In this document: positions 3,920-42,820 of the stretch, one piece after another | Numbering within the stretch: position 1 is the first letter of the stretch | Layout: every line of letters begins with the position of its first letter | From: Tieghemiomyces parasiticus | Taxonomy: Eukaryota; Kickxellomycota; Dimargaritomycetes; Dimargaritales; Dimargaritaceae | Length of the DNA: 64,000 nucleotides | Assembly: GCA_027575765.1 (NCBI GenBank) | Contig: JANBPT010000098.1 | Span: 1-64,000, forward strand | Reading direction: 5' to 3' | Translations under genes and position numbers: made by a program | Notes under the pieces: generated by a model | Database searches by the model: none | Seen by the model: only the letters and a program-made list of their open reading frames with translations | Told to the model about the DNA's origin: nothing

Positions 3920-6900
3920 CTAGAAGGCAAACATTGACCGCAAATCCTCAATCTTCTTTCCCACCTCACCGGCTGTCCGGTCTAGCTCCTCGGCGATCTG
4001 GTCACGTTTGGCAGGGGGAAGGAGGGCGAATTGCTCACAGAGATCACCGTCCACCACAGATCGGACGGGGGCGTAATAACCACGGTAGGCCAGGTGATCC
4101 CGACCGACTAACGGGGGCAGTTCAGCACGCAGGTGCATTTCCAGGGTCTGGAAGAACTCGGCGTCATCCTTGGATGCGAACGGGATGGCTGCCCCTACGG
4201 TACCGCCCAGTGTTGTGTAGAACAGGAGTTCGCGGCCGCCCGCTACCAGCGTGGCCCGCCGCAGAGACGTGACCGTGTCGCCCAGGTAAAAGTGGGCCTC
4301 GGTAGTCAGCTTGTGTGGGGCACCCTGCAGGTATCCCTTCTCGTGGTAGAGCAAATTGCCCGACGCGTCGGCATCGATCCGGCGGGACACGTCGTCGGCG
4401 AGGCGGACCACGAAGAGGTTACCAAACTTGTCCCCGCCGGCCACCGTATCGTAATCGAGTAGTTCGGCAGCCGTCATCCACCGCGGAAGGAGATCGTCGG
4501 CAAAGACGGCCAAGCGGTTCTCCTGCGGTCGGTACATAGCGAAGTGCACCGAGGCCTGGACGTCGCTTACGTAGATACGCTGGCCCCGGACCTTCAAGTC
4601 CACCACCATCCGCGGGATAGCCTGCGACTGGCACTTACGCAGGAGCTTACGCTTGCCTAGGTCGTAGATCCGGAGGGTGGCTCCCAAGCCCACCAGGGCG
4701 CGGCCCTGGAAGTCTGCAATTGCCCGCGCGATTCCGTCCACGGGCGTGGTGTGCACCAGGCTGAGCTGGGTTCCATCGGTCGAGAATCGGTAGGTGCGCA
4801 GGTGGGCGGCCTTGAACTCACCGGTCTGGAGGGCCGCCCCGCGGGCGGTGCCCACTACTAGAAGGGGCGGTGCGTCGGGTCCCTCCGAGGCAAAGTGGAC
4901 CAGCCCCATCCCGAACACAGCGTTGCCGCCCGTCAACGACTCCTGCCAGGAGGTCTCTCCGGTCAGCGGGTTGAGCACACGGAGGCAGGAGGACCACGCT
5001 GGACCCTCTGCATCGTCTGTCTCGGCCATTGCCGGCTGGGCATCCGTCTCGTAGATGACGAAGTGGTTGGACGGCGGGTAGAGCAGAGCTCGACGCGGGG
5101 TGTGCTGGAGGGGTACCGCGGCCTGGTTGAGCGGTACGCCTAGTCGCTCGACGGTCAGAATCCGGAGGGTGTTCTCGGCCACGGCCACAAGACCCTCCAG
5201 GCAGGCTTCGGACCGGAAGGCACAGGCGTAGTTGAGGGCGTCATAGGCGATGGGGGCCAAGCGGGTGCGGCCCTGGTAAACGTAGCTAAGCCAGGGCCGA
5301 CTTGACAGGGCGAGAACGGCCGGTACGCCGTTGGCAACTACGGAAAAAAGTTGGACGGGTTTGGAGCCCAGGAATCGAGTGCGGGTCTCCGACAGCTGAC
5401 CGCCCTGGTGATCTACAACGGTGCGCAGCATGACACCTGAGCGCAGGCCGATGTAGAGGTAGAGCGTCGTGAGGTGTGGGTCGGTCTCGCGGTCGGCCAT
5501 ATCGAGCATGCACAGAGATGACGGCACGTCAGTGAGGGCCTGCATGGCTAGGGGTTCCAGCCGACGCGCCGGGTCCAGTCCAAGGACCCGTACCGTGCTG
5601 TCGACCAGGGCTGCCGCCACGAACCTGGCGCGCAGTTGGCCCTCCGGGACGGCAGGGAGAGACAGTGCGGTCACCTCGTCGCCCAGGTCGGCCGTCTCCT
5701 CGTGCTCCTCCAGCTGGCCTGTTGCGGCGTCCAGTTCGAAGTAGATCAATTCCCCGGAGGTGAGTGCCAGAACTAGCTGGCGGTGGTTAGCCGCAGCGTG
5801 CACCACTTCCTGGTGGTTCGGAGGCCGCCACTCGCTGGCGCGGCGATCAGCGCGAATCAGCCGGTACCCTTGCGGGTGTACCTGCAGGAGTAAGTCGGCC
5901 CCCATTTGCTGCACAGCCAAGGTGGGCTTGGTGGTCAGGAACCCGGAGTCGGTCACTTCCTCGACCGTCTCGCCGATGGCCAGTACGAGGGTGGCGTCCA
6001 CAAAGGACACGACGATGTACGAGTCGTACGGGTCGGCGGCAGTCAGCTGGGTGGACCAGATGGCACGCGGATGTCCTGGAAGTTCCGACACAGCCACCTC
6101 GGCGGCCTCCAGCCCGTGGCGTAGGACCTTAAATGTGGAGGTGGGACCTCGGCCGCACAACGCGTAGATTTGAGGGGTGTCTTCCTGGGCGAGGTTATGA
6201 AGGTTGGCGTCCAGCAGTGGGGCCAGGCTCTCCAGCTCGTCGACCGGAGCCAGGTTGACCAGATCGCGCGGGGTGAAGGCGAGGCGCGGATCGTTGAGGT
6301 CCTCCTCATCGACGTTGAAGTCGGCACTGGACAGTTCCGGCAAGTCGTCGTCGTCGCCAAGCTGTTCAAACTGGTAGAGGGTATGATTGCCAAACTCAGC
6401 GGCCGCGAATAGGAACCCGGCCCGGAACACGCACAGGCTGGCAGCCACGGGGATGGTGTCAAAATACTTGATCCGCAAGGCCTGGGCCCGCTCGCCTTCA
6501 TAGTCCACCGACACTTTGAACAAATCGCCTTGGTCGGTCTGGAGAAGCACGAATATAGTCTTTTTCATCTTGTGCACGACCCCGGTCACGATGAGGGGGG
6601 CGCGGTCCGTAGCAGACCGGCGCGGGATGGGCACACGCAGTTCCGGAACGCCCTGGTGGCGATAGGTCACATAGCCTTCGGAACAGACCAGCACGCCGGA
6701 GGGTCCCTCGGTAGTGGTCTCCGTGAGCGCGCCGCCGGGCAGCGGGACCAGGAGATTGGCGCTGGGGTCGACGGGTTCGGACCACTTTCGCACGATATGG
6801 TTGAGGCCCAGGTCGAGTTCATAATACGTGAGCACCTTGTCAGTGTTCTCCAACGCCTCGCCCGTGGGATCTTCGTCGGCCTCGCCATAATCCACCTCCA

Positions 6901-7453
6901 GGCACGCAAAGACGGGGTTCTCGAAACCCACGTCCAAAGCCACGCAGGAAAAGACCAGGGTATGGGCCCGGTGGGCCTCTAACGGGGACGAAATGGTAAG
7001 GGCGGCGGTGGCGTCGCGGTTCAGAATGTAGGCCAGTTTCTGCTTTTCCACAGCGGCCGTCAGCAGCGCACGGCCACGCGGGTCGACGGCCAGGTACTCG
7101 CCAGGCACGGAACGGCGCACGCCGGACTTGCCGAAGGTCTCCATCTGCACACGCCGGAAGGCATTGGTCGGCGGCATGTATTCAAGAATTATCAACCGGC
7201 CGGAATCTGACGTGACAACGAGGTAGTCCTTGGATGCGCCGGTCAGCCGGAAGGGCGCGATGGACCGGACCACGCCGAAAACATCGTGCGATAGGAGGGT
7301 TACAAGCTTCCCGGTAGTCAGATCAGGCCGTACCAGATCGAGCCGGGTGCCGCGGGCCAGCACGAGCTCCTGGGCCTTCTCGCCTGAGAAATTACCTAGG
7401 ACGGCCTGGGTGACCTGCGTCGGCGGTTGGAGGGTCAGGTTATACAGGAGCAT
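3920..7453 (-). CDS. RSE1: Splicing factor 3b subunit 3 (SF3B3/Rse1/SAP130)
   Basis: A single uninterrupted exon of 1177 residues, close to the usual 1200 or so of the family. It begins MLLYNLTLQPPT and GNFSGEKAQELVLARG, the characteristic start of SF3b130, and runs through the beta-propeller (MMS1/CPSF-A) fold. The C-terminal CPSF_A region includes DLKVRGQRIYVSDVQ, followed by DKFGNLFVVRL. The family is a three-propeller scaffold of SF3b in the U2 snRNP that helps in branch-site recognition, in the nucleus. The ATG at 7453 is used because homology starts exactly there. A gene for a second SF3b subunit (SF3B6) lies 4.6 kb away on the same strand. DDB1 and CPSF160 are relatives, but the N-terminal and C-terminal signatures fit SF3B3 best. 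Confidence 0.97.
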   Translation of the reverse strand: MLLYNLTLQPPTQVTQAVLGNFSGEKAQELVLARGTRLDLVRPDLTTGKLVTLLSHDVFGVVRSIAPFRLTGASKDYLVVTSDSGRLIILEYMPPTNAFRRVQMETFGKSGVRRSVPGEYLAVDPRGRALLTAAVEKQKLAYILNRDATAALTISSPLEAHRAHTLVFSCVALDVGFENPVFACLEVDYGEADEDPTGEALENTDKVLTYYELDLGLNHIVRKWSEPVDPSANLLVPLPGGALTETTTEGPSGVLVCSEGYVTYRHQGVPELRVPIPRRSATDRAPLIVTGVVHKMKKTIFVLLQTDQGDLFKVSVDYEGERAQALRIKYFDTIPVAASLCVFRAGFLFAAAEFGNHTLYQFEQLGDDDDLPELSSADFNVDEEDLNDPRLAFTPRDLVNLAPVDELESLAPLLDANLHNLAQEDTPQIYALCGRGPTSTFKVLRHGLEAAEVAVSELPGHPRAIWSTQLTAADPYDSYIVVSFVDATLVLAIGETVEEVTDSGFLTTKPTLAVQQMGADLLLQVHPQGYRLIRADRRASEWRPPNHQEVVHAAANHRQLVLALTSGELIYFELDAATGQLEEHEETADLGDEVTALSLPAVPEGQLRARFVAAALVDSTVRVLGLDPARRLEPLAMQALTDVPSSLCMLDMADRETDPHLTTLYLYIGLRSGVMLRTVVDHQGGQLSETRTRFLGSKPVQLFSVVANGVPAVLALSSRPWLSYVYQGRTRLAPIAYDALNYACAFRSEACLEGLVAVAENTLRILTVERLGVPLNQAAVPLQHTPRRALLYPPSNHFVIYETDAQPAMAETDDAEGPAWSSCLRVLNPLTGETSWQESLTGGNAVFGMGLVHFASEGPDAPPLLVVGTARGAALQTGEFKAAHLRTYRFSTDGTQLSLVHTTPVDGIARAIADFQGRALVGLGATLRIYDLGKRKLLRKCQSQAIPRMVVDLKVRGQRIYVSDVQASVHFAMYRPQENRLAVFADDLLPRWMTAAELLDYDTVAGGDKFGNLFVVRLADDVSRRIDADASGNLLYHEKGYLQGAPHKLTTEAHFYLGDTVTSLRRATLVAGGRELLFYTTLGGTVGAAIPFASKDDAEFFQTLEMHLRAELPPLVGRDHLAYRGYYAPVRSVVDGDLCEQFALLPPAKRDQIAEELDRTAGEVGKKIEDLRSMFAF

Positions 7454-8192
7454 GGCAGCGTGCCAGCGGGGTGGGCGGAATGATTAGGTGCGTGGGGGGG
7501 ATGTATGTATGAGGGATACACAAGAGTGTACGTAGGCAAGGGTGGTGGAGTGATCTGCCCAAGCAAAGGAAGATTATGGGGCCAAACGGGCAATGCGAAA
7601 ATGTGGCCGGCGTTTGTCGTGAAAAACGGGAAGGGGGTTGGCGCCAGTGCTTAACAAGGCAACCGCGAAAGCGACGCGATGTGTCTCCCCTCACCTCTGC
7701 TTAGAGGGTAAACGTGTTGTGCAGCTACGGTCAGGGTAAATCTGTAGTGGCCAGTTATCATCAGTGGTTGCACTACCTATGGCAACGGGTCAGATTACCA
7801 GGTGTCTGTATTTCTAATCCCAAGTTAGTCCTGGATCTAGGACGCCCTGCCGCTTGCGTAGATGGAATGGGGCGAGCCTGGGCGTTGCTGCCGAGTGAGA
7901 AAGGAATCGTACCGATATTTTATAATGGAAATTTCTACAATTAACTAGAGGGGGTCATTAGACAAAAGCAGCACATACACAGCCAAGCAGGATGGCCGAA
8001 CTGGTGGCCAAAGCGGGTTAGCACTGAACGAGCAAATTATAGCGAGGGTTAAAAAAATATTAAAGGGTTATGAGGGAATACTATAGTACACGCAACGAAG
8101 AATGTCAGATCGGATCGGAAATTAAAATGCAACCCAAGTCGGAATCGAAGATGGGGGGGGCCGGGAAGAGGCGGGGGCTGGCGTGCCTACAC
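7454..8192. other. Intergenic, no gene recognised
   Basis: 739 bp between the demethylase stop and the SF3B3 start, both genes being on the minus strand. It should hold the SF3B3 promoter and the 3' end of the demethylase transcript. A G8 run lies near 8153. An open frame of 76 codons (7714-7944) has no recognisable homology. Confidence 0.6.
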
Positions 8193-10595
8193 CTAGGGAA
8201 CGTGCTTAGCGCAGAAGACCTGGCCATCCGTCAGGTTAATGATCGGTCGACTAACGATTGCCTCGCTTTCCGCCTCCACCCGCAGTCGGAGCAGACAGCC
8301 GACGTGGAAAGCGGTACAGCAGCGCCGCTCGGCGCACTGCACGCATGCCCCGGCCTTACCCTTACACAGCTGACATTTGAGATTCCAACGGGCCTTGGGC
8401 ACGGCCTCGTAGCCCGTGACTAGCGGTAAGGCCCCGAGCAAGGCGGACGCTAGGGTCGGGAGGGCGGCGGCGTATACGTCCGCCACGGTGACGGTCTCGT
8501 CCCCGGATTCAACGAGCGCCGACACTACTGCCGTCTCCGTCACTAGCCGGGCACAGGGGGGGTGGGCAAACTGGAGGTATTCAGCCCGTTCTGCGGAATT
8601 TAACGCCCGCAGGGTCGCCAAAAACTCGGTGCCGTACGTGCTGCGGCGGATACGTTTCAGTCGCCGTAGGGTCTCCAGCGGACTTACGAGGTAGAGCGGG
8701 CCGTTGCGGAGCGGGCACAGTATGCAGCGCAGCTCGGCGCCGTCGGGGAGGCCCAAGTGGCACCGAAAGCAGCGCCAAGCTTCCTCGGGCGGTGTCGCGA
8801 GAGTGGGTAGATAGCAGTCCTTGTGGACGCCAAGACCGCAGCCTACACAGGCGATGGAGGTAACGGCGTCAGTATCGTCAGCGGCTATCGGCTCGAAGCA
8901 GACCGCGCAGCAGCGATCCGCCGGCGGACACGGGTAGTCACCCACGGCGGCCCCGACGGACTGGTAGGCGCGGGCGAGGGCCTCGGGAAAGTCAATGGAT
9001 GCAGATTTGTAAGGGCTCTTGCAGACGGGTGCAGAGAGGTGTGGGGTGGCTGAGCGCTTCCGGGAGGCCTGGGCTGACGAGGCGTCGGACTGGTCATTCG
9101 AAGCCGAGGTCGAACTGTTCGATCCCACCCACTGCCGGTTAAATGTCCCGGCGCGCTGCTCCTGCCAGTAATCGGTCTCAGTCAAGGCAGCGGGAAAAAA
9201 TTCGTCGATAGCGATGCGCACACTGTCACCAATGCAGCGGCAGGGCACAGCGCGCCGGCCTAGGGGCACCCAGGAGGGCAGAGCGAAGTTGACCGACTCA
9301 GCACAATTGAAGCCCTGGTTGAACCCAGCGTGGTACCCGTTGGGGAAGGTAATGACAAACTCGCCATGGCTCTGGACGAGCCGGTGCACGGGCACGTCGT
9401 ATTGGCGCTTGAGGATGGACGGCGAGATCACGCTAGACTTATGCCGCAGGAACTCCGGGCAGTGGCGGGCATCTTCGCTGAACAGGCCCTGGGCCGCGCG
9501 TTCAAACTTGGCGCGGTGGGCGGGCGGAATACAGTACCAACTCTTGGGCTGACCAAAATGGAGGTAGTTGATGGAATAGAGGTCCATATCCTCCACGTGC
9601 CACGCAAAGGTAGCCTTCCACATGCCAAGGTACAGGTACGGCTGGTTGACGCCGGGCATAGAAATATCGATGCGGTTGAGCACGCTGCCCAGGTTGCGCG
9701 GGTTCCAGGTGGGGAATGTGGCCGGGGTGGGGAACAGGGTCCCAGGGATGTCAGCGCCGTACATGGGCGGTGCGAATGACAAGTTCCGCCAGTACTGGCG
9801 GTCCAGGGCGTCGAAGTGGTCGACGTACGAAGCGACGTGATCGGGCGGAAGCTCATCACCAGTACCGTCGGCTGCAGTCGCCGGGGTAGTGGTCGAGGCC
9901 GGTAGGGCATGGATCGCTGATCGGTCAGGGTCGCCCACGTGGGCCACCTGACGTGCCAGGTCGACATGGATGCCATTCGGCTGATCACCGGCGGCGGAGG
10001 GTGGGTCCGCGGGCCGTGGGGGTGAGGCACCGCCGCGCAGGCGGGCGTGGGCCTCTGTTGTGACCGGCACGGGCGGGGCCTGGCGGGGGTCGACACAGCG
10101 CCGGTAGAACTGGGCCAGGTTGACCCGGCGGTGATTCTCTACGTTGTACTGCTTGTAAATACCCTGACTGCCTTCAAAATGCTGGACGATGGGCCGCATG
10201 ATGGGGAACTCGTCGTTATCCAGAAAGATCTCCTGGTTGTTGGATGACGGGACGCGCTTCTCGCGGACCATGTGGTCGTGGAGCTCACTTTTCCACTCGG
10301 TGGGCGGGATCACCTTGCACAGGCCTGCGCGGAGGGCAAAGGGCTCGGCGGCGGCGATGAACCGTGAAAAATCGCGGAACTGCAGGAGGGTGGGCTGAAA
10401 GACGGGCACTGCCGAGCCCGGATAGTAGTAGGCCGGTTCCAAGTTAGCCAGGGCCGCGTCGATCGCGGCCGAGAGATCCGGGCCGGTGGCAGGGTCCTGG
10501 TAAAGCACCGAGGCGTCCGCTGCCGCTGGGGGCGGCGACGGGGCCGTCTGAGGCACCGGATCAGGCCGTACGGTGCGGGGCAGGTGCGTGATCAT
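8193..10595 (-). CDS. KDM4-type histone lysine demethylase (JmjN-JmjC-PHD-ePHD)
   Basis: An intronless 800-residue protein. JmjN lies at about 63-103 (VPVFQPTLLQFRDFSRFI) and JmjC at about 290-460. Fe(II) ligands His333 and Glu335 are in AWHVEDMDLYSINYLHFG, and His422 is in GYHAGFNQGFNCAESVNFA, the KDM4 signature. The C-terminus (about 562-798) is Cys/His-rich, with CCAVCFEP starting a PHD finger and CQLCKGKAGACVQC an extended PHD. KDM4 enzymes are 2-oxoglutarate/Fe(II) oxygenases that remove methyl groups from H3K9 and H3K36 in the nucleus. No Tudor domains follow, unlike animal KDM4A-C, and no C2H2 fingers, unlike yeast Rph1/Gis1. A Pro/Ala-rich insert of about 80 residues separates the JmjN region from JmjC. 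Substrate preference cannot be read from the sequence. Confidence 0.95.
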   Translation of the reverse strand: MITHLPRTVRPDPVPQTAPSPPPAAADASVLYQDPATGPDLSAAIDAALANLEPAYYYPGSAVPVFQPTLLQFRDFSRFIAAAEPFALRAGLCKVIPPTEWKSELHDHMVREKRVPSSNNQEIFLDNDEFPIMRPIVQHFEGSQGIYKQYNVENHRRVNLAQFYRRCVDPRQAPPVPVTTEAHARLRGGASPPRPADPPSAAGDQPNGIHVDLARQVAHVGDPDRSAIHALPASTTTPATAADGTGDELPPDHVASYVDHFDALDRQYWRNLSFAPPMYGADIPGTLFPTPATFPTWNPRNLGSVLNRIDISMPGVNQPYLYLGMWKATFAWHVEDMDLYSINYLHFGQPKSWYCIPPAHRAKFERAAQGLFSEDARHCPEFLRHKSSVISPSILKRQYDVPVHRLVQSHGEFVITFPNGYHAGFNQGFNCAESVNFALPSWVPLGRRAVPCRCIGDSVRIAIDEFFPAALTETDYWQEQRAGTFNRQWVGSNSSTSASNDQSDASSAQASRKRSATPHLSAPVCKSPYKSASIDFPEALARAYQSVGAAVGDYPCPPADRCCAVCFEPIAADDTDAVTSIACVGCGLGVHKDCYLPTLATPPEEAWRCFRCHLGLPDGAELRCILCPLRNGPLYLVSPLETLRRLKRIRRSTYGTEFLATLRALNSAERAEYLQFAHPPCARLVTETAVVSALVESGDETVTVADVYAAALPTLASALLGALPLVTGYEAVPKARWNLKCQLCKGKAGACVQCAERRCCTAFHVGCLLRLRVEAESEAIVSRPIINLTDGQVFCAKHVP

Positions 10596-12052
10596 GCAGG
10601 AAAGGGTGGCGAAGGAGGAGGAATCGCCGGTGCTCCACGGGGTGGGTGGTGGTAGACAACTGGTGGGTTACGGTTACGTTTGGGTTTCAAACGCACAAGA
10701 GACTGAGCGAGCTGGGCCCAACTCCAGTGTCAGACAAGAGCGAAAATGGCAGGGAAGCAGGATGCGGGGTGACGTACTAGGGAAAGATTCTAAAGCTGGG
10801 AAGCTGGAATGTAAGGCTGGCGGGGGACCAGGGTTACGGTGTACGTTGGCGAATGAAGGTTTGACGTCTCAAAACAGCGGGCAGGGAATGAAAGGAAGAA
10901 GGCGCCAAGGAAAAGGCCAGAATGGGTGATAAGCGTGGAATTCAAAGACAGGAAATTTTAGTTGACCAGTCGGGACGCGCCGGGCGGTAGCTAACAGGTT
11001 TTGGTCCGTTCCCTCGTTATAAAAGTTAATGACGGTGGCGCACCTTATGAAAAAAAAAAACCTCCCCCCGGACCATGGGTGTGTTCCCAGATGATTGGGC
11101 CCATCCGCCGCTGTCCGGGCTTACTGTAGCACTGGGCTCCAGGTAAACAATCAGGCGGAACCGGCCGCTCGAGGGAGCCAAACTTCGCGTTCGCAGTGTG
11201 ATATTTGGACAATCCAGAGTCAATGGGAACCGCCTAGCCCACAGGATGTAGAGAGGGAAAATTGTTTGGGATTTCTCGCGGGTTGTTGGTGTAAGTAGGG
11301 GCAATCAGCAGCCTGCAGTTATCGAAACCAGTAAAAACAGGGTTAGCTGTGATTGTATCGAGCAGTAGGAGCATAGTAAACCTGCCGCAACACAGGATGT
11401 ATTCATATTGAGAGTATATGATAATGGTCTTAGCTCCGAGGGTAGTTACTGGAGTATGAGTAATATCCACCCTTGCCTATCCACTTGGACGCACGGACCT
11501 ATGCAGCAGGGCGACCAGGACACTGTGCTGCGGGCCTGGCCTGGGTAATTCTTAAGCAGAACTGCGCTTGGCTCCACACCCTGTACTGTATCACGGAATG
11601 ACATCCAGTTGAGTTCCTTCAGCAAGACACTGTGCAGCTCAAGACTCTAGCGATCAGTCTACCATGTCTACTTGATAAGTACCACAGAGGGTTTAGGTGT
11701 ACAGGGACTGCCAACCGCCCGATCTAGAGCTAATACCCAGCGGGGTAGTTGAACCCTGCTGAATCTTTTCCCGGCCTAGTCCTGAGGGGTTGGTCCGCTC
11801 TTATATAGTGTGCTCTTCTTTCAGGACCCGAGTCTACTACTGTACGGTTCAAGTAGACACAGAGATACCCTCTCTCATTCAGAATCGGTGTAATCACGAC
11901 GAAACTGCCCAGAGGTTTGCTAATTTCGGTTGTAATAATTATCTTAGGCTGTTGCTGGTGAATCTGCACAGCTGTAACCAAAATTTATTGTACAAAGTGA
12001 GCAGGGACCAGAGGTTAAGAATGCAAGCGCCAATAACCCGCAACACAGAACA
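10596..12052. other. Intergenic, no gene recognised
   Basis: The first 330 bp hold the demethylase promoter/leader. A C6/A11 tract at about 11050-11069 reads on the minus strand as CC-G6-AGG-T11, nearly the same as a tract at 14653-14676. No protein, tRNA or repeat family was recognised. Confidence 0.6.
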
Positions 12053-35976: not shown

Positions 35977-37104
35977 TTAGTTGGTGGTGGTGGTGGCAGC
36001 GGTAGCAGCAACCAGACCCTCGTACGTGTAGACCAGACCAAATACGATGAACAGGGCGCCCCCGCTGAGCGTGACCGTCCGCACCGAAATCCGGGTGGCC
36101 AGGATCCGGCCGCCGACGACTGCCAGGCCGGTACAGAGAGCGTGGCCAAAGATAGTACCGATACTAACCCATACCATATCGGCCGCGGCGGCCAGGGCGA
36201 TGGTGGCCAGCTGTGACCGGTCGCCCCACTCGGCGACGAACATGATCAGGGCAGTTTGCAAGAACACAGGCGAAAAGACCTGCTGCATGAGATAGTGCAG
36301 GTGGCCCACCAACCCCGGTAAACGTTCCTCCCCGGTCGGCGTGCCCTTACCGGCAGCCCGCCCGCTGTGGTACTTGGCGGAGTCTGCGTCCTGGGAGTTC
36401 GTAGCGGGCGAGCCCCCGCGGATTTGAATGTTGTGTCGGGGGGCGGCGGAAGTCGACGAACCTGTTGCGGGGTGGTGACTACTACCGGCGCCGCCGATTG
36501 CGAATTCACCCGCCTCGAGCTCGATGGCCTCCTCACCTTTCTTGGCATCTTCGAGCTCGGCGCTCGTCTCGTCCATTTCCTTTAGGGCGTGGTCGGCCTC
36601 CATTTCCCACCCCTCCATGATCATCTTGACCCCAAAAACCAAAAACAGCAGCGCGGCTGCCAGTTCCACAAACCGTTGGGGAATTAGATGTGGTAGGACG
36701 TGGCCCATGAGCGCTGACAGCACGGTCATGACTGCCAGGGCGGACAGCGCAGCCGAAAAGATGAGCAGACGGGAGTGCTTCATGGCCATGATGGCCGCAA
36801 TGAAGAAAGTCTTGTCGCCAATTTCCGACACGATGGTCACTAGGACGCTCGACACCAGGGACTGCATCTGAGTGTGGCCCAGGTAGCCCGTGTCTGGTGT
36901 GGGTTGAGCAGCGGCAGGGGTCGTCGGATGACCATTGGATGCGCCGGGTGGGGTCGCACCGACGGGCGCCGGTGAGCCCGCTGCTGGGCCAGCATCTACA
37001 GCTTGGACGATGACGGTGAGTAGCGGTAGGAGGACGAGCAGGGTGCGCACGCCCGATATGGCTAAACGCCGGGCGGCGTTCGTGGAGGAGGATATAGAAG
37101 GCAT
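35977..37104 (-). CDS. GDT1: GDT1/TMEM165-type Golgi manganese/calcium transporter
   Basis: An intronless 375-residue membrane protein. A hydrophobic N-terminal signal/anchor (about 18-36) precedes a Pro/Ala-rich stretch. Two homologous three-helix halves follow, each carrying the E-x-G-D-(K/R)-(T/S) signature of UPF0016: SEIGDKTFF (Glu94) and AEWGDRSQL (Glu292). These acidic residues bind Ca2+ and Mn2+. The two halves are joined by a hydrophilic loop of about 100 residues. The family imports Mn2+ and Ca2+ into the Golgi lumen, in exchange for protons, to support glycosylation. The ATG at 37104 gives the best signal sequence. It lies two genes from MPG1, which makes the GDP-mannose used in the same compartment, but the two are separated by INTS9. 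Confidence 0.96.
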   Translation of the reverse strand: MPSISSSTNAARRLAISGVRTLLVLLPLLTVIVQAVDAGPAAGSPAPVGATPPGASNGHPTTPAAAQPTPDTGYLGHTQMQSLVSSVLVTIVSEIGDKTFFIAAIMAMKHSRLLIFSAALSALAVMTVLSALMGHVLPHLIPQRFVELAAALLFLVFGVKMIMEGWEMEADHALKEMDETSAELEDAKKGEEAIELEAGEFAIGGAGSSHHPATGSSTSAAPRHNIQIRGGSPATNSQDADSAKYHSGRAAGKGTPTGEERLPGLVGHLHYLMQQVFSPVFLQTALIMFVAEWGDRSQLATIALAAAADMVWVSIGTIFGHALCTGLAVVGGRILATRISVRTVTLSGGALFIVFGLVYTYEGLVAATAATTTTN

Positions 37105-38079
37105 GAGAATTCAAACGGAAAGTGGAGGAGACGCCACTTGGAATGGAGTGAGCCTGGAGGAGAAGACTAGGAAAACTGCAATCGATGAGCCTAAAAAAAA
37201 TACATGATAATTATCTGAAACAATAATAATTCGCGAGGCGTGGGGAGAGAGCGCGGAGAGGTCAAGTCAGAAAAAAAACGGGTTATGGGATTAAGGAAAC
37301 GTGCTCAAGACCAGCCATAGCAATCGGCTAGGTGGCAGAGTGGATACTCACCACCGCCAGCACCTCCTCTCCTCTGGATTAAGAGGGATTGACGGATGCC
37401 AGGACAAGACAATGGGAACGGGCACTTCTGGTGCCGAGCCATGTCGATACCGATGTACTATGGGCCGGAGCAGATGGGACGAGAAGCGACGATAGTGGTT
37501 CTCCCCGCAGTACCATCGAATGATGTACACGTCCCCCATTCATACGCACAAAGGAGCTGTCTCATCCATAAATCCTGCGAGATTATGTGGGGGGGGGCTC
37601 ATTTATCCCTACCGCATGTAATCTCCAAAACATAAATAGTGTTCTTACCTCGTTCTCAGTTTTAACCGCCTAAGCTGTCATCACACCTGGTTATCTGAAA
37701 ATTCCGCACAGCCAACAGCGCTGCAGCCAAGCCGCTCCACCCGTGACCTCTAGAAAGCACTGGTAGGTCTCCTAGCAAAGGGGAGAGGGACAAATGACGT
37801 GAATAGAAGTCCGGCGGGGGCATGCCTCACTCTTACCATCAAAACGCGACAGAATGGTATACCTGATGACCACCCACCGTATCCGTGTCGACTATGGCCT
37901 AGGTGCACAAGTGGACAGTTAGGCACATCAACGGCTATCGCTTTGAGCTCCGCTACCAAGGAAAGGGCACCCGACGTCCATCTGAATCGCCTGACCAACC
38001 AGTGGTACTCTTGGCAGATCATTATTTTAAGGTTTATAATCACTTTGTGTAGCGTTATAATACGCATTCAATATGTAGC
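37105..38079. other. Intergenic, no gene recognised
   Basis: 975 bp between the INTS9 stop and the GDT1 start (both minus). A perfect tRNA A-box-like match (TGGCAGAGTGG, about 37332) has no matching B box or acceptor stem. A G run of nine lies near 37590. Confidence 0.55.
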
Positions 38080-40824
38080 TTAGAGCTCCACTAGACTGCT
38101 ATGTCGGATCAAGCTGCTGAGATGGCACCGGAGCTCCTCGTGATCGCAGTGCAGCTGTGTCCGCCCGGCATCGCAGGTGATAGTTGCTTTATGCGGACCA
38201 GCCGTCAGGGTCAACCGGACGACACCGTCCTCCTTCTTGTCTACCGAGTCGAGCTGCAGACCCGTGTCCTGGAAGTACGGGGATGTATAGGAGAGAAATG
38301 TGAGGCGGAAGGGTCAGTACCGAGCCACAGGCGTTACACGTATCCATGCCAACCGGAGTATATATATATATATAGTTTTTTTTCTACCTCACCACTTTTT
38401 CAAACTGCCAGCCTGACTTGCTAATGCACTTTCACTTACCGTTTTGATTCCCTCGATGAGCCGGTCGGTGGCCACGTTGCCGCACAGCATGCGCTTGTGA
38501 GGCTGACCTCGTTGGGTGAACATGCCGGGCGGTTTGATACGTAGGCCGCCACGCTCTTCCCGTAGGATTCCTTGGATGCGCGCCACGGTCTGACCCCCCT
38601 GAAGGGTTAATTCGGACTGCCATGCGACCTAATCAGTAGGAAAGCCGGGTGGCGCGGCGATTTTAGGAAATGGTGTATTACATCCAACGGAGATATTAGG
38701 CTATGAGCTTCAACTGTCCTGGAGCAGATACCACGGCATAACACCGTCCCTCAAGCCAGGCGATCCTCTGTCTTACATTTTCCGAGAGATATACGGTCTG
38801 GCGCTGGGGTCCGCTGGCCTCCCACGTCGCGGCTTCGAGGGGTGCGTAGGCCACGTAAGTCCGAGAGCCACCGGCCGGCGGTAGACGGCTGCGAAGGGTG
38901 GCGAGAGTATCGCTAGGCAGGATCACCGCGGTGGCGGTGGTACGCTCCACCACGTCTAAAAGGTCACGAGTGGATAATTCGGTATCTAGTGGCAGATTGA
39001 ACAGTTGGCACCGCGGGGCCGGGGTGGCCACTTCGTGGGCAGAATAAAGAGACTGCCAGCTGCGAAATACGTCGGTACCGGGTTCGACAGCGACGATGGC
39101 ATGCAGGGGGTTACCACCCCATTGTCGCAATAGCTCCCGAGCCGGCCCAGTGGCCAAGGAGGCGTGGCCTGCGAAAATGATACAAGGCTCCTGGTACGAC
39201 AGCTTCGTCAGCTGGGTCAAGGAAGTCACGTAGGTCAGTCGGCCTGACGCGATCAGTTCGTCCTGCAATAGAGGGGCTTCGGGTAGGTAGATGAGGTTTT
39301 GCTTCTCTGGGCACATCCACTCGCCCATGATGTTGGCGTAGAGCAGAGCCCGGTCGGCCACGGGTGATACGGCGTACATGCGCACCTTGGACAGCCCGTG
39401 AGCATCCAGCGCGTAGGCCAGGGACTCAATCAGGTCAAATACAAGACCTAGGATATGGCAAGGGAAGAGCACGTTACCCTTCTGTTTAAGAGTGGCCAGT
39501 ACGGCGCTGTTGACCTGATTTAGGGTGTGGGATAACGGTGGGCCCGGTCCGCGTTCGACATAACGGTCGGCCACGAACATGGCATGCGTCCGCTCAACCA
39601 CTGTCCAGTCAAAGTTGCTCGGATGAGTAGCGGTAAGCAGGGATGAATTAGACAGGAGGGTGAGCCGTTGCGCGGCCACCTCAACCACCCAGTTGGCGCT
39701 GCCCAAGGCGAACCCTGAACTGTACGGGGTAACCTTGACGTGGTGGAAAGGGCACTGCGTCTCCTTGTAGCGCAGGCTCATGATCTTTTCCAGGCACTGA
39801 AGCGCGTCGCTATGGGTATACGGGAGGTGTCGCAGGCCAGCGCCGACCGAACCAGAGCGTGCGGTGGACGTTGATGATACCGATGTAGAGGACGAGGGGC
39901 CAACGGCAGGTCGGGACACGCGAGGCGTTTCCTGATATTGAACCAACTCCTCGATCCAGCACCTGCAGCAGAGAGGGGGTTGGGAAGTAGAACGTAGGGC
40001 GTTCAAGGGTGACACCAGTACCCAGGTAGCGGCGAAGGGGTTAACTAGTGGTCGCAGAGCGGTAGTACTGCTTATCGATCAACCCAACCCATTGATTATC
40101 AATGGCAACAACGCCATCGGCGAGACCTACCGTGCAAAGACCAAGCCGACCTCGGTAAAATATACGGTTCCGGCGAAGGCTGAGTAGCCCATGATGAACG
40201 GTAAGGCCAGCATCTGGGTATGGTTGGAGATGAGAATAAAGTCTACCGAGCCCCAGTCAACCAGGTTCAGGTCGGCCCATAGGCTGGGGATCGAGTGGCT
40301 CGCCCGGGTTTTAGCGTCTTCGTCTAGTATGAACAATTTTAGACGGATGAGAGGGGCCCGGAACGGTACAGACAAAGAGGGAGATGCGTAGAGGGGTGCG
40401 GTATTATGAACAGTAGCGTCAGTCATCAAGAGGATACCGGCTAGAAAATTATGCGATGCGATACGGATCAAGGGTAAGCTTACCTGACCGGTCCGGCAGC
40501 TCGGGAAGTCCACAGTCAAATACAAAGGTGACATCGCCCCATTCGAAGAGGAAGAAGTGGGCGCCGGGGATGCGCGAGAGACAGGTCTGGCCGGGCGACG
40601 GGCGGAGTATCAAGCAGAGGACGGCAATAGTATGGAAGGGATAGTAGGTGGTCAAATACAGACCGTCAGTTGGCGGACAGTGGGCAAGGTTTCTGCGGGC
40701 ATTTCCCCCATGCCCTAAGCATAGCTCCAATCCACCCTCCCCCCAACCAGTGTCCATGCGGACTCGGATTCTGCCCGTTCACCTTGACATGCGACCTAAT
40801 CGGGACACTTACCACTCTAGGCAT
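38080..40824 (-). CDS. INTS9: Integrator complex subunit 9 (INTS9) orthologue, six exons
   Basis: Exons (minus): 40813-40824, 40484-40586, 40131-40440, 38777-39962, 38440-38628 and 38080-38268. Total 1989 nt, 662 residues (human 658). The 12-nt first exon (MPRV) joins TCLSRIPGAHFFLFEWGDVT, restoring the family start. Then come FDCGLPE, VDFILISNHTQMLALPFI and TPYSSGFALGSANWVVEV, then NVLFPCHILGLVFDLIESL and PCIIFAGHASLATGPA. As in INTS9 and CPSF100, metallo-beta-lactamase ligands are missing (ISNHTQM instead of HxHxDH), so it is a pseudo-enzyme partner of INTS11. Exons 5-6 encode the C-terminal dimerisation domain, ending SSLIRHSSLVEL. Integrator is nuclear and cleaves nascent RNA at promoters and snRNA genes. 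CPSF100/CFT2 was considered, but N-terminus, spacing and C-terminus fit INTS9. The 43-nt second intron is the weakest point. Confidence 0.9.
38359..38374. repeat. (TA)8 microsatellite in INTS9 intron 5
   Basis: Eight TA units followed on the plus strand by a T8 run at about 38376, inside the last intron (38269-38439) of INTS9. Confidence 0.9.
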
Positions 40825-41541: not shown

Positions 41542-42820
41542 TTACATAATGATTTTGGGCTCGGTCACATTGACGCTGATGGTCTTATGGGGTAGGACGC
41601 AGCCGCCGTTGATGTAGATTTCGGGGCTGACGGTCACATCGTCGCCTAGAACGGACACACCCTCCAGACGGGACCAGCGGCCGATCGTCGAGTTCCAGCC
41701 GACGATGGAGTTCCGCACCCAGGCGTAGTCCTTGACGCGCACCGAATCGAGCAGCACACAGCGCTGGAGACGCACACCGTCGCCAATCACCACACCGGGG
41801 CCAATCACCACGTTGGGGCCAATCTTGCAGTCCTTTCCGACCTTGGCGGTGGGGTGAACCATCACGTGGCCGCCGTGGACGTACGACTCGGTGGCCGGGG
41901 CCAGCTTTTCCGGGGCGTTCTTGGCCAGGCTAGCAAGGTAGAGGCAGGTGCCGGTGAGGAAGTCTTTGGGCTGACCCACGTCCATCCAGAAGCCAGCCAG
42001 GTCGAAACAGTGAAGGTTGTTGTCGGCGGCCATGACGGGGAAGATCTCCTTCTCGATGGAAGTGGGGCGCAGGGGGATACGGTCCAGGATGGTGGGGTTG
42101 AAAATGTAGATGCCGGCGTTGATGCGGTTGCCCACAAACTCCACAGGCTTCTCTACGAAGCGGTCAATCTGGGTGGAGCCGGTCTTGGTGACAACGACTC
42201 CATACTTGGAGGGCTCCTCCACCTTGGTGACCACGATGGTTCCTTCGCCGCCGTGCTTGGAGTGGAAGTCACGCAGTTCCTCGAACGGAAACTCGCAAAT
42301 CACGTCGCTGTTGAGGACGAAGAAGGGCGAATTATCCTTGGCCAAGATGTCCTTGGCCAAGGCCAGCGGGCCGGCGGTGCCTAGCGGCTCATTCTCCACC
42401 GAGAAGGTGATACGAACGTTGTACTCTTCCTCGTAACGCTGCAGAACAGACACCATGACCTCGGGGCGGTAGTTGACAGCCAGGACGACGTCCGTGACGC
42501 CAGCCTAGTAAAAGCCGGTAAAAAAAGGAAGGCGATGGGATAAGAGTGCAAGGGTTAGTGAGCGGTTATGGCGAATAGGTTTGGGTATGGTGGTGCGCTG
42601 AGAAACGGAAAACCAATACGCATCCGGGTCAGCTCGGGTGGATGTACCCACGGTTGTCCACGCGGACACGTCAACAATTGAGGAGCCTTACCTTGACCAG
42701 GGCCTCGATTTGGTGTAGAATCATGGGGCGGTTCGCAAACTCGACCAGTGGCTTGGGCTTGGTCAGAGTGAGCGGGCGGAGACGGGTGCCGAAACCACCG
42801 ACGAGAATGAGGGCCTTCAT
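41542..42820 (-). CDS. MPG1: Mannose-1-phosphate guanylyltransferase (GDP-mannose pyrophosphorylase), two exons
   Basis: CDS = complement of 42692-42820 and 41542-42504, 1092 nt, 363 residues (yeast Psa1/Vig9 361). Exon 1 carries the nucleotidyltransferase signature ([19 protein letters not shown], then [19 protein letters not shown]). Exon 2 continues [37 protein letters not shown], then a left-handed beta-helix of hexapeptide repeats ([17 protein letters not shown]), and ends EPKIIM as in the family. It makes GDP-mannose from mannose-1-phosphate and GTP in the cytosol, feeding N- and O-glycosylation, GPI anchors and cell-wall mannan. The donor is GTAAGG and the acceptor ACTAG, phase 0. Confidence 0.98.

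Follow-up and report, generated by a model that had tools for sequence, protein, structure and literature searches.

An INTS9 gene and further Integrator subunits in the genome of the fungus Tieghemiomyces parasiticus

The window considered here is a stretch of 64,000 nucleotides (nt) of contig JANBPT010000098.1 (assembly GCA_027575765.1) from Tieghemiomyces parasiticus, a fungus placed in the Dimargaritales of the Kickxellomycotina. On its minus strand lies a six-exon gene for the Integrator subunit INTS9, with the start codon at 40824 and the stop codon ending at 38080. An earlier note on this DNA had described a six-exon INTS9 gene at 38080..40824, and this is borne out by the splice sites, by a protein deposited for the species (“hypothetical protein IWQ60_007082 [Tieghemiomyces parasiticus]”, hereafter P0001), and by matches to chains in the PDB. 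The five introns are all of the GT-AG type (226, 160, 168, 148, and 171 nt), and the corrected protein has 623 residues. Exon 1 (40813..40824, minus strand, as are all the others) encodes MPRV and is followed by the donor GTAAGT at 40812; the same start and exon are found in P0001 and in a second haplotype of the gene on contig C759. Exon 2 (40484..40586) follows the acceptor GGCCAG and ends before the donor GTAAGC at 40483, and the same boundaries yield P0001 on C759. Exon 3 (40131..40323) carries the stretch ISNHTQMLAL where a zinc-binding motif would stand. Exon 4 (38777..39962; 96% identity to P0001) encodes the bulk of the metallo-beta-lactamase (MBL)/beta-CASP core. Exon 5 (38440..38628) has boundaries supported by the exact translation of P0001 on C759, and exon 6 (38080..38268), which includes the stop codon, encodes together with the end of exon 5 a C-terminal alpha/beta domain spanning residues about 552-623.

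The boundary in need of correction is the start of exon 3, which the earlier note had set at 40440 and which lies at 40323. Intron 2 occupies 40324..40483 (160 nt) and is omitted from P0001, and its part 40440-40324 had been taken as coding. When exon 3 of the second haplotype is started at the counterpart of 40323, the translation equals P0001 exactly over 623 residues. Moreover, the haplotypes differ at 41 synonymous and 14 nonsynonymous sites in the corrected coding sequence, as against 0 synonymous and 7 nonsynonymous sites in the disputed 117 nt. Both observations identify 40440-40324 as intron and rule out the 662-residue alternative, whose intron 2 of 43 nt leaves 117 nt of intron in the coding sequence; the near-equality of its length with the 658 residues of the human protein is thus a coincidence. 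A further model of 716 codons (stop included), starting at 40757 and lacking intron 1, is likewise ruled out, since MPRV plus intron 1 gives P0001 on C759. One might still suppose, with P0001 being named merely a hypothetical protein in NCBI, that the locus represents a decaying copy or an artefact of assembly. This is highly improbable: both haplotypes have open frames, they agree in their exon boundaries and differ with an excess of synonymous changes, and orthologues exist in the genera Dimargaris and Dispira.

The assignment to INTS9 is carried by several lines of evidence. In phmmer searches of the PDB chains with the 662-residue model, human INTS9 (E = 3.4e-59) and Drosophila INTS9 (1.6e-53) were recovered far ahead of the next matches, yeast Ysh1 (4.1e-05) and CPSF100 (0.005). 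The MBL and beta-CASP domains are clear from the sequence together with the fold model. In Pfam terms, the match to PF10996 (Beta-Casp) lies above the cut-off (E = 7.8e-07; 30.1 bits against 27.7) and that to PF16661 (Lactamase_B_6) below it (E = 0.00055; 19.8 bits against 27), both falling in exon 4. The HxHxDH zinc motif is absent, with no H.H.DH anywhere in the protein and ISNHTQMLAL at residue 70. In this the protein resembles the metazoan INTS9 (human 7bfp and 7cun; Drosophila 7sn8), likewise an MBL/beta-CASP protein without the zinc motif and the best match by sequence and by Foldseek. With the fold model as query, the top six Foldseek matches come from Integrator entries and are chains that we take to be INTS9 (8rbx_i by its chain letter only); in seventh place stands a chain from a U7 small nuclear ribonucleoprotein (snRNP) entry. 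The fungal protein differs from its metazoan counterpart as follows: Foldseek aligns it to INTS9 chains at 21-24% identity, it is shorter than the human chain (623 versus 658 residues), and its C-terminal domain is below Pfam detection.

The domain layout proposed in the earlier note accordingly stands for the MBL/beta-CASP part and finds no match for the C-terminal dimerisation region. The INTS9 C-terminal family PF21382 has no match at E<=1 in either the window protein or P0001. Profile comparison of the tail with hhalign reached a probability of only 0.4%, from small alignments of which one has a misaligned row. In the fold model of P0001 the tail is an ordered alpha/beta unit, with block means of the predicted local distance difference test (pLDDT) of 81-91 over residues 551-620. 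Structural alignments made with VIA-align reach residue 617-622 on INTS9 chains, and do likewise on CPSF100-type and INTS11 chains. A C-terminal INTS11-dimerisation domain is thus not confirmed: an ordered tail is seen in the fold model alone.

CPSF100/CFT2 is, like INTS9, an MBL/beta-CASP partner of an active nuclease. The gene might accordingly be read as a divergent CPSF100/CFT2 paralogue acting in mRNA cleavage and polyadenylation, and the shared fold class gives this some purchase: the VIA-align comparison does not separate INTS9 from CPSF73, and its Z scores for CPSF73 and for U7/CPSF100-type chains are as high as those for INTS9 chains. The phylogeny speaks otherwise. In a maximum-likelihood tree of 26 rows (18 INTS9, including the window protein, five INTS11, two CPSF73, and the single CPSF100 of this genome), all 18 INTS9 rows lie on one side of a branch with support of 100/100. 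The split is still 100/100 in a second tree of 22 rows that leaves out four long INTS9 rows. Constraining the Dimargaritales INTS9 to join the CPSF100 of this genome lowers the log-likelihood by 54.39 and is rejected by the approximately unbiased (AU) test (p-AU = 0.00016). In both trees the single CPSF100 row forms a long branch adjoining that of INTS9 (as the program warned), and the trees give no readable order among the INTS9 lineages. A placement within CPSF100/CFT2, which the earlier note had named as one of two outcomes that would overturn its assignment, is therefore not what the trees return. Together with the gap in E-values (3.4e-59 for human INTS9 against 0.005 for CPSF100) and a CPSF100 of the genome's own, encoded elsewhere (contigs C1253 and C333), the trees and the AU test rule out a CPSF100/CFT2 identity, leaving that reading very improbable. 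CPSF100/CFT2 has the same fold, yet it forms a separate branch and a separate gene here, and on sequence comparison we identify the window gene as the INTS9 orthologue of Tieghemiomyces parasiticus.

The genome also encodes partners of INTS9. INTS11 is present on contigs C503 and C1051 as a single open frame of 666 residues (E of 2.1e-243 to human INTS11) with an intact HxHxDH motif in the form HFHLDH. The copy on C503 is 100% identical to an NCBI protein named “Integrator complex subunit 11 [Tieghemiomyces parasiticus]” (P0009). INTS4 was recovered on C280 and C416 (E = 2.6e-80 to the INTS4 chain of 8r2d), with an INTS4_C match over the cut-off and a weak match (0.03) to the INTS4 8HBD profile in the genome search. 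INTS7 (C51 and C1183; E = 1.3e-61), INTS2 (C400 and C1303; 7.0e-65), and INTS6 (C665; 1.1e-28) are further recognised, and weak INTS7_N matches occur on C643 and C507 (E = 0.013 and 0.015). E-values of 3.9e-39, 2.6e-28, and 4.1e-19 were also recorded for INTS7, INTS2, and INTS6, respectively. The earlier note had suggested looking for such subunits in the same genome and had proposed that the lineage keeps at least the INTS9/INTS11 module. Both suggestions proved apt: INTS11, INTS4, INTS2, INTS7, and INTS6 are all recognised, and INTS11 has its motif intact. The second outcome that the earlier note had named against its assignment, a lack of INTS11 combined with a better INTS9 candidate elsewhere, does not apply either, INTS11 being present. 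With INTS11 and INTS4 each found on two contigs of this genome, the fungus retains the INTS4/9/11 cleavage module at the level of gene content. INTS1 and INTS8 were searched for with single-domain profiles in six frames, introns being ignored. Two profiles for INTS1 (PF12432 and PF22929) and one for INTS8 (PF25756; best E of 0.2, on C884) gave nothing significant, a result that does not imply absence. CPSF100 (best PDB match CPSF subunit 2, 9.6e-63 for the copy on C1253) and CPSF73 (C205; best PDB match CPSF-73, 2.8e-145) are separate genes. Six of these eight traced genes (INTS9, INTS11, INTS4, INTS2, INTS7, and CPSF100) occur on two diverged contigs, and INTS6 and CPSF73 on one; because of this duplication the assembly (G000) looks like an unphased one of two haplotypes.

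We consider it likely, with a probability of about 0.88, that the gene is the INTS9 orthologue of this fungus and that a catalytically dead INTS9, an active INTS11, and INTS4, docked on an Integrator scaffold, cut nascent RNA Polymerase II transcripts there. INTS9 would be the inactive MBL/beta-CASP half of a pair with the endonuclease INTS11, and INTS4 would clamp the two. The resulting module would dock on a scaffold with INTS2 and INTS7 among its members, along with a part containing INTS6, and would cleave the transcripts as they emerge from the polymerase. Its targets would most likely be small nuclear RNA (snRNA) precursors, cleaved immediately downstream of the mature sequence; mRNAs whose transcription ends prematurely are probable targets as well. 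The orthology of INTS9, its loss of HxHxDH, the intact motif of INTS11, and the presence of INTS4, INTS2, INTS7, and INTS6 are read directly from the sequences; the assembly of the complex, the cleavage of RNA, and the choice of the RNAs to be cut would follow from the known biology of Integrator.

Comparison with animals and plants refines this picture. In animals the cleavage module consists of INTS4, INTS9, and INTS11, as described in the available part of PMC9006982, and the metazoan partners INTS11 and INTS4 are likewise encoded in this fungus. In Arabidopsis, going by the available part of PMC5079582, DSP4 and DSP3 are reported as the potential homologues of INT9 and INT4, and DSP1 has an ARM domain about 25% similar to that of INT7. 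The same text describes INT11 and INT1 as missing in plants, where the DSP1 complex with CPSF73 processes snRNAs and CPSF73-I is required. In contrast, the fungus has INTS11 besides CPSF73. As regards the nuclease it thus looks nearer to animals than to plants, for which a lack of INT11 and INT1 is described. The interpretation in the earlier note holds for gene content; its suggestion that snRNA 3' processing or promoter-proximal termination may run as in animals and plants lumps two cases that PMC5079582, in its available part, sets apart.

A side line concerns the snRNA genes, the presumed substrates. The motif RTCCCACAA, placed 36-37 nt ahead of an ATAAA box, is found in 14 of 14 U1 and five of seven U2 promoters read (loci L057-L082 and L032-L049). 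Since the promoter pattern itself served to find one U1 (C417) and one U2 (C798), the independent counts are 13/13 and 4/6. The remaining two U2 copies have TCCCATAA, in one of them 49 nt before a TATA-like box. All 13 Rfam matches to U1 (67.1 to 50.4 bits) fall below the gathering score of 69.5, and they were accepted for their 5' end and Sm-like stretch. A search of the genome with the promoter pattern gave 29 matches as opposed to 5 with a reversed control, and 19 of the 29 are U1 (14) or U2 (5) loci. The other 10 were included in an Rfam scan of 12 of the 29 loci and have no match at E<=0.01, nor any of four short motifs, typed by hand, for U5, U4, U6, and the Sm site; hence genes for U4, U5, and U6 were not found among them. 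Two near-identical pairs of loci (C410/C783 and C413/C1184; L056, L067, L058, and L078) show the pattern from TCCCACAA to ATAAA with no recognised RNA downstream. The arrangement in the U1 and U2 promoters is close to the upstream sequence element (USE)-TATA layout of plants at Polymerase II spacing: the plant USE is RTCCCACATCG, and in Polymerase II genes it lies four helical turns from the TATA element (PMC9845283, available part). The fungal motif was seen before this comparison was made.

On the 3' side, 11 U1 and six U2 flanks were extracted (three more U1 lie outside the end pattern, and one U2 is cut by a contig end). For the test of shared words, five of each, two of the U2 (L036 and L071) being 76% alike, were picked by hand after viewing the sequences. 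With one mismatch allowed, the best 7-mer in this sample is CAACCAA (4/5 and 4/5 flanks; reached in 8 of 150 shuffles), and AAAGAAAA occurs in three and three flanks (0 of 150 shuffles). The best 6-mer was reached in 25/150 shuffles, and no 9-mer is present in three or more flanks of both families. In U1 and U2 alike, stretches resembling AAAGAAAA and CAACCAA lie no more than 45 nt from the presumed 3' end of the mature RNA (e.g., L065, L080, L032, and L070). Neither the metazoan 3' box, GTTTN0-3AAARNNAGA (PMC9006982, available part), nor the plant one, CA(N)3-10AGTNNAA (PMC5079582, available part), has a clear match in these flanks. A shared U1/U2 3' element, possibly a fungal 3' box, is thus only suggestive.

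The weakness of this element leaves some room for a reduced Integrator, made up of the cleavage module and part of the scaffold, that has given up snRNA processing and terminates a few mRNA or non-coding transcripts, the snRNA 3' ends being made by CPSF73 or by exonucleases. The null results for INTS1 and INTS8 fit such a reduction, and in Arabidopsis the snRNA task falls to a CPSF73-containing complex (PMC5079582, available part). However, INTS2, 4, 6, 7, 9, and 11 are all recognisable, and the U1 and U2 flanks, few as they are, have the stretches resembling AAAGAAAA and CAACCAA in common; hence, we regard a reduced complex of this kind as unlikely. Beyond an Integrator that cuts snRNA precursors, a broader proposal can be put forward tentatively, with the odds somewhat against it: non-Dikarya fungi may keep an ancestral snRNA system in which plant-type U1 and U2 promoters, with RTCCCACAA some four helical turns ahead of a TATA-like box, are combined with an Integrator of animal type that brings its own INTS11 nuclease and recognises a fungal 3' element. 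Both halves, today known from different kingdoms, would then go back to the shared ancestor of plants, animals, and fungi, and Dikarya would have lost the two of them.

The distribution of the two subunits points beyond this one species. INTS9 orthologues with 46-50% identity occur in Dimargaris and Dispira under the NCBI name “Integrator complex subunit 9”. They come from different genera, and the Tieghemiomyces parasiticus copy is deposited as a hypothetical protein. What was already known, then, is the INTS11 of this species and the INTS9 of sister genera, both named in NCBI; the INTS9 reported here is unnamed in this species. An INTS11 query passed 5,959 of 7,990 scored candidates at E 0.001. 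The organisms named among the best 120 of these 5,959 are non-Dikarya fungi, some rows being without an organism name, and this selection is no evidence that Dikarya are without the gene. Dimargaris, Dispira, Mortierellaceae, Umbelopsis, Mucor, Rhizopus, Rhizophagus, Coemansia, and Quaeritorhiza, all of non-Dikarya lineages, are among the INTS11 matches listed. With an alignment of INTS9 as the query, 20 of 7,994 scored candidates pass, including Dispira, Paraglomus, Acaulospora, Gigaspora, Rhizophagus, other Glomeromycotina, Spiromyces, Geranomyces, Fonticula, and Selaginella. Among them, P0144 (E = 1.7e-14) is an ascomycete YSH1 and hence no INTS9. Between them, the relatives of INTS9 and INTS11 span Mucor, Mortierella, Glomeromycotina, Kickxellales, and chytrids. 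Inheritance from an early ancestor is the best reading of the fungal INTS9, and the fungal Integrator looks more like an ancient apparatus that many fungi other than yeasts have retained than like a novelty. A loss of Integrator in Dikarya is taken from the literature.

A 2022 review, in its available part, restricts Integrator to metazoans, and fungal Integrator is not discussed in the available parts of PMC6368637 and PMC7471841. No report of Integrator in fungi was recognised by title or abstract opening, a partial coverage that says little about what is in print, and no paper naming Tieghemiomyces parasiticus was found. With six Integrator subunits recognisable in one genome, this species offers a fungal setting in which the function of the core complex could be tested, and from the distribution of Integrator across fungi its loss in Dikarya could be dated.

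The surroundings of the INTS9 gene are ordinary. Its neighbours, both on the minus strand, encode a GDT1-type transporter (35980-37110) and a protein that combines a nucleotidyl transferase domain with a GMPPB C-terminal one (41545-42504). Elsewhere in the window, also on the minus strand, a single open frame at 3923-7483 encodes an RSE1/DDB1/CPSF1-type beta-propeller protein of 1187 residues, and 8196-10667 encodes a JmjN/JmjC protein with PHD-type fingers, whose domain order recalls that of KDM4.
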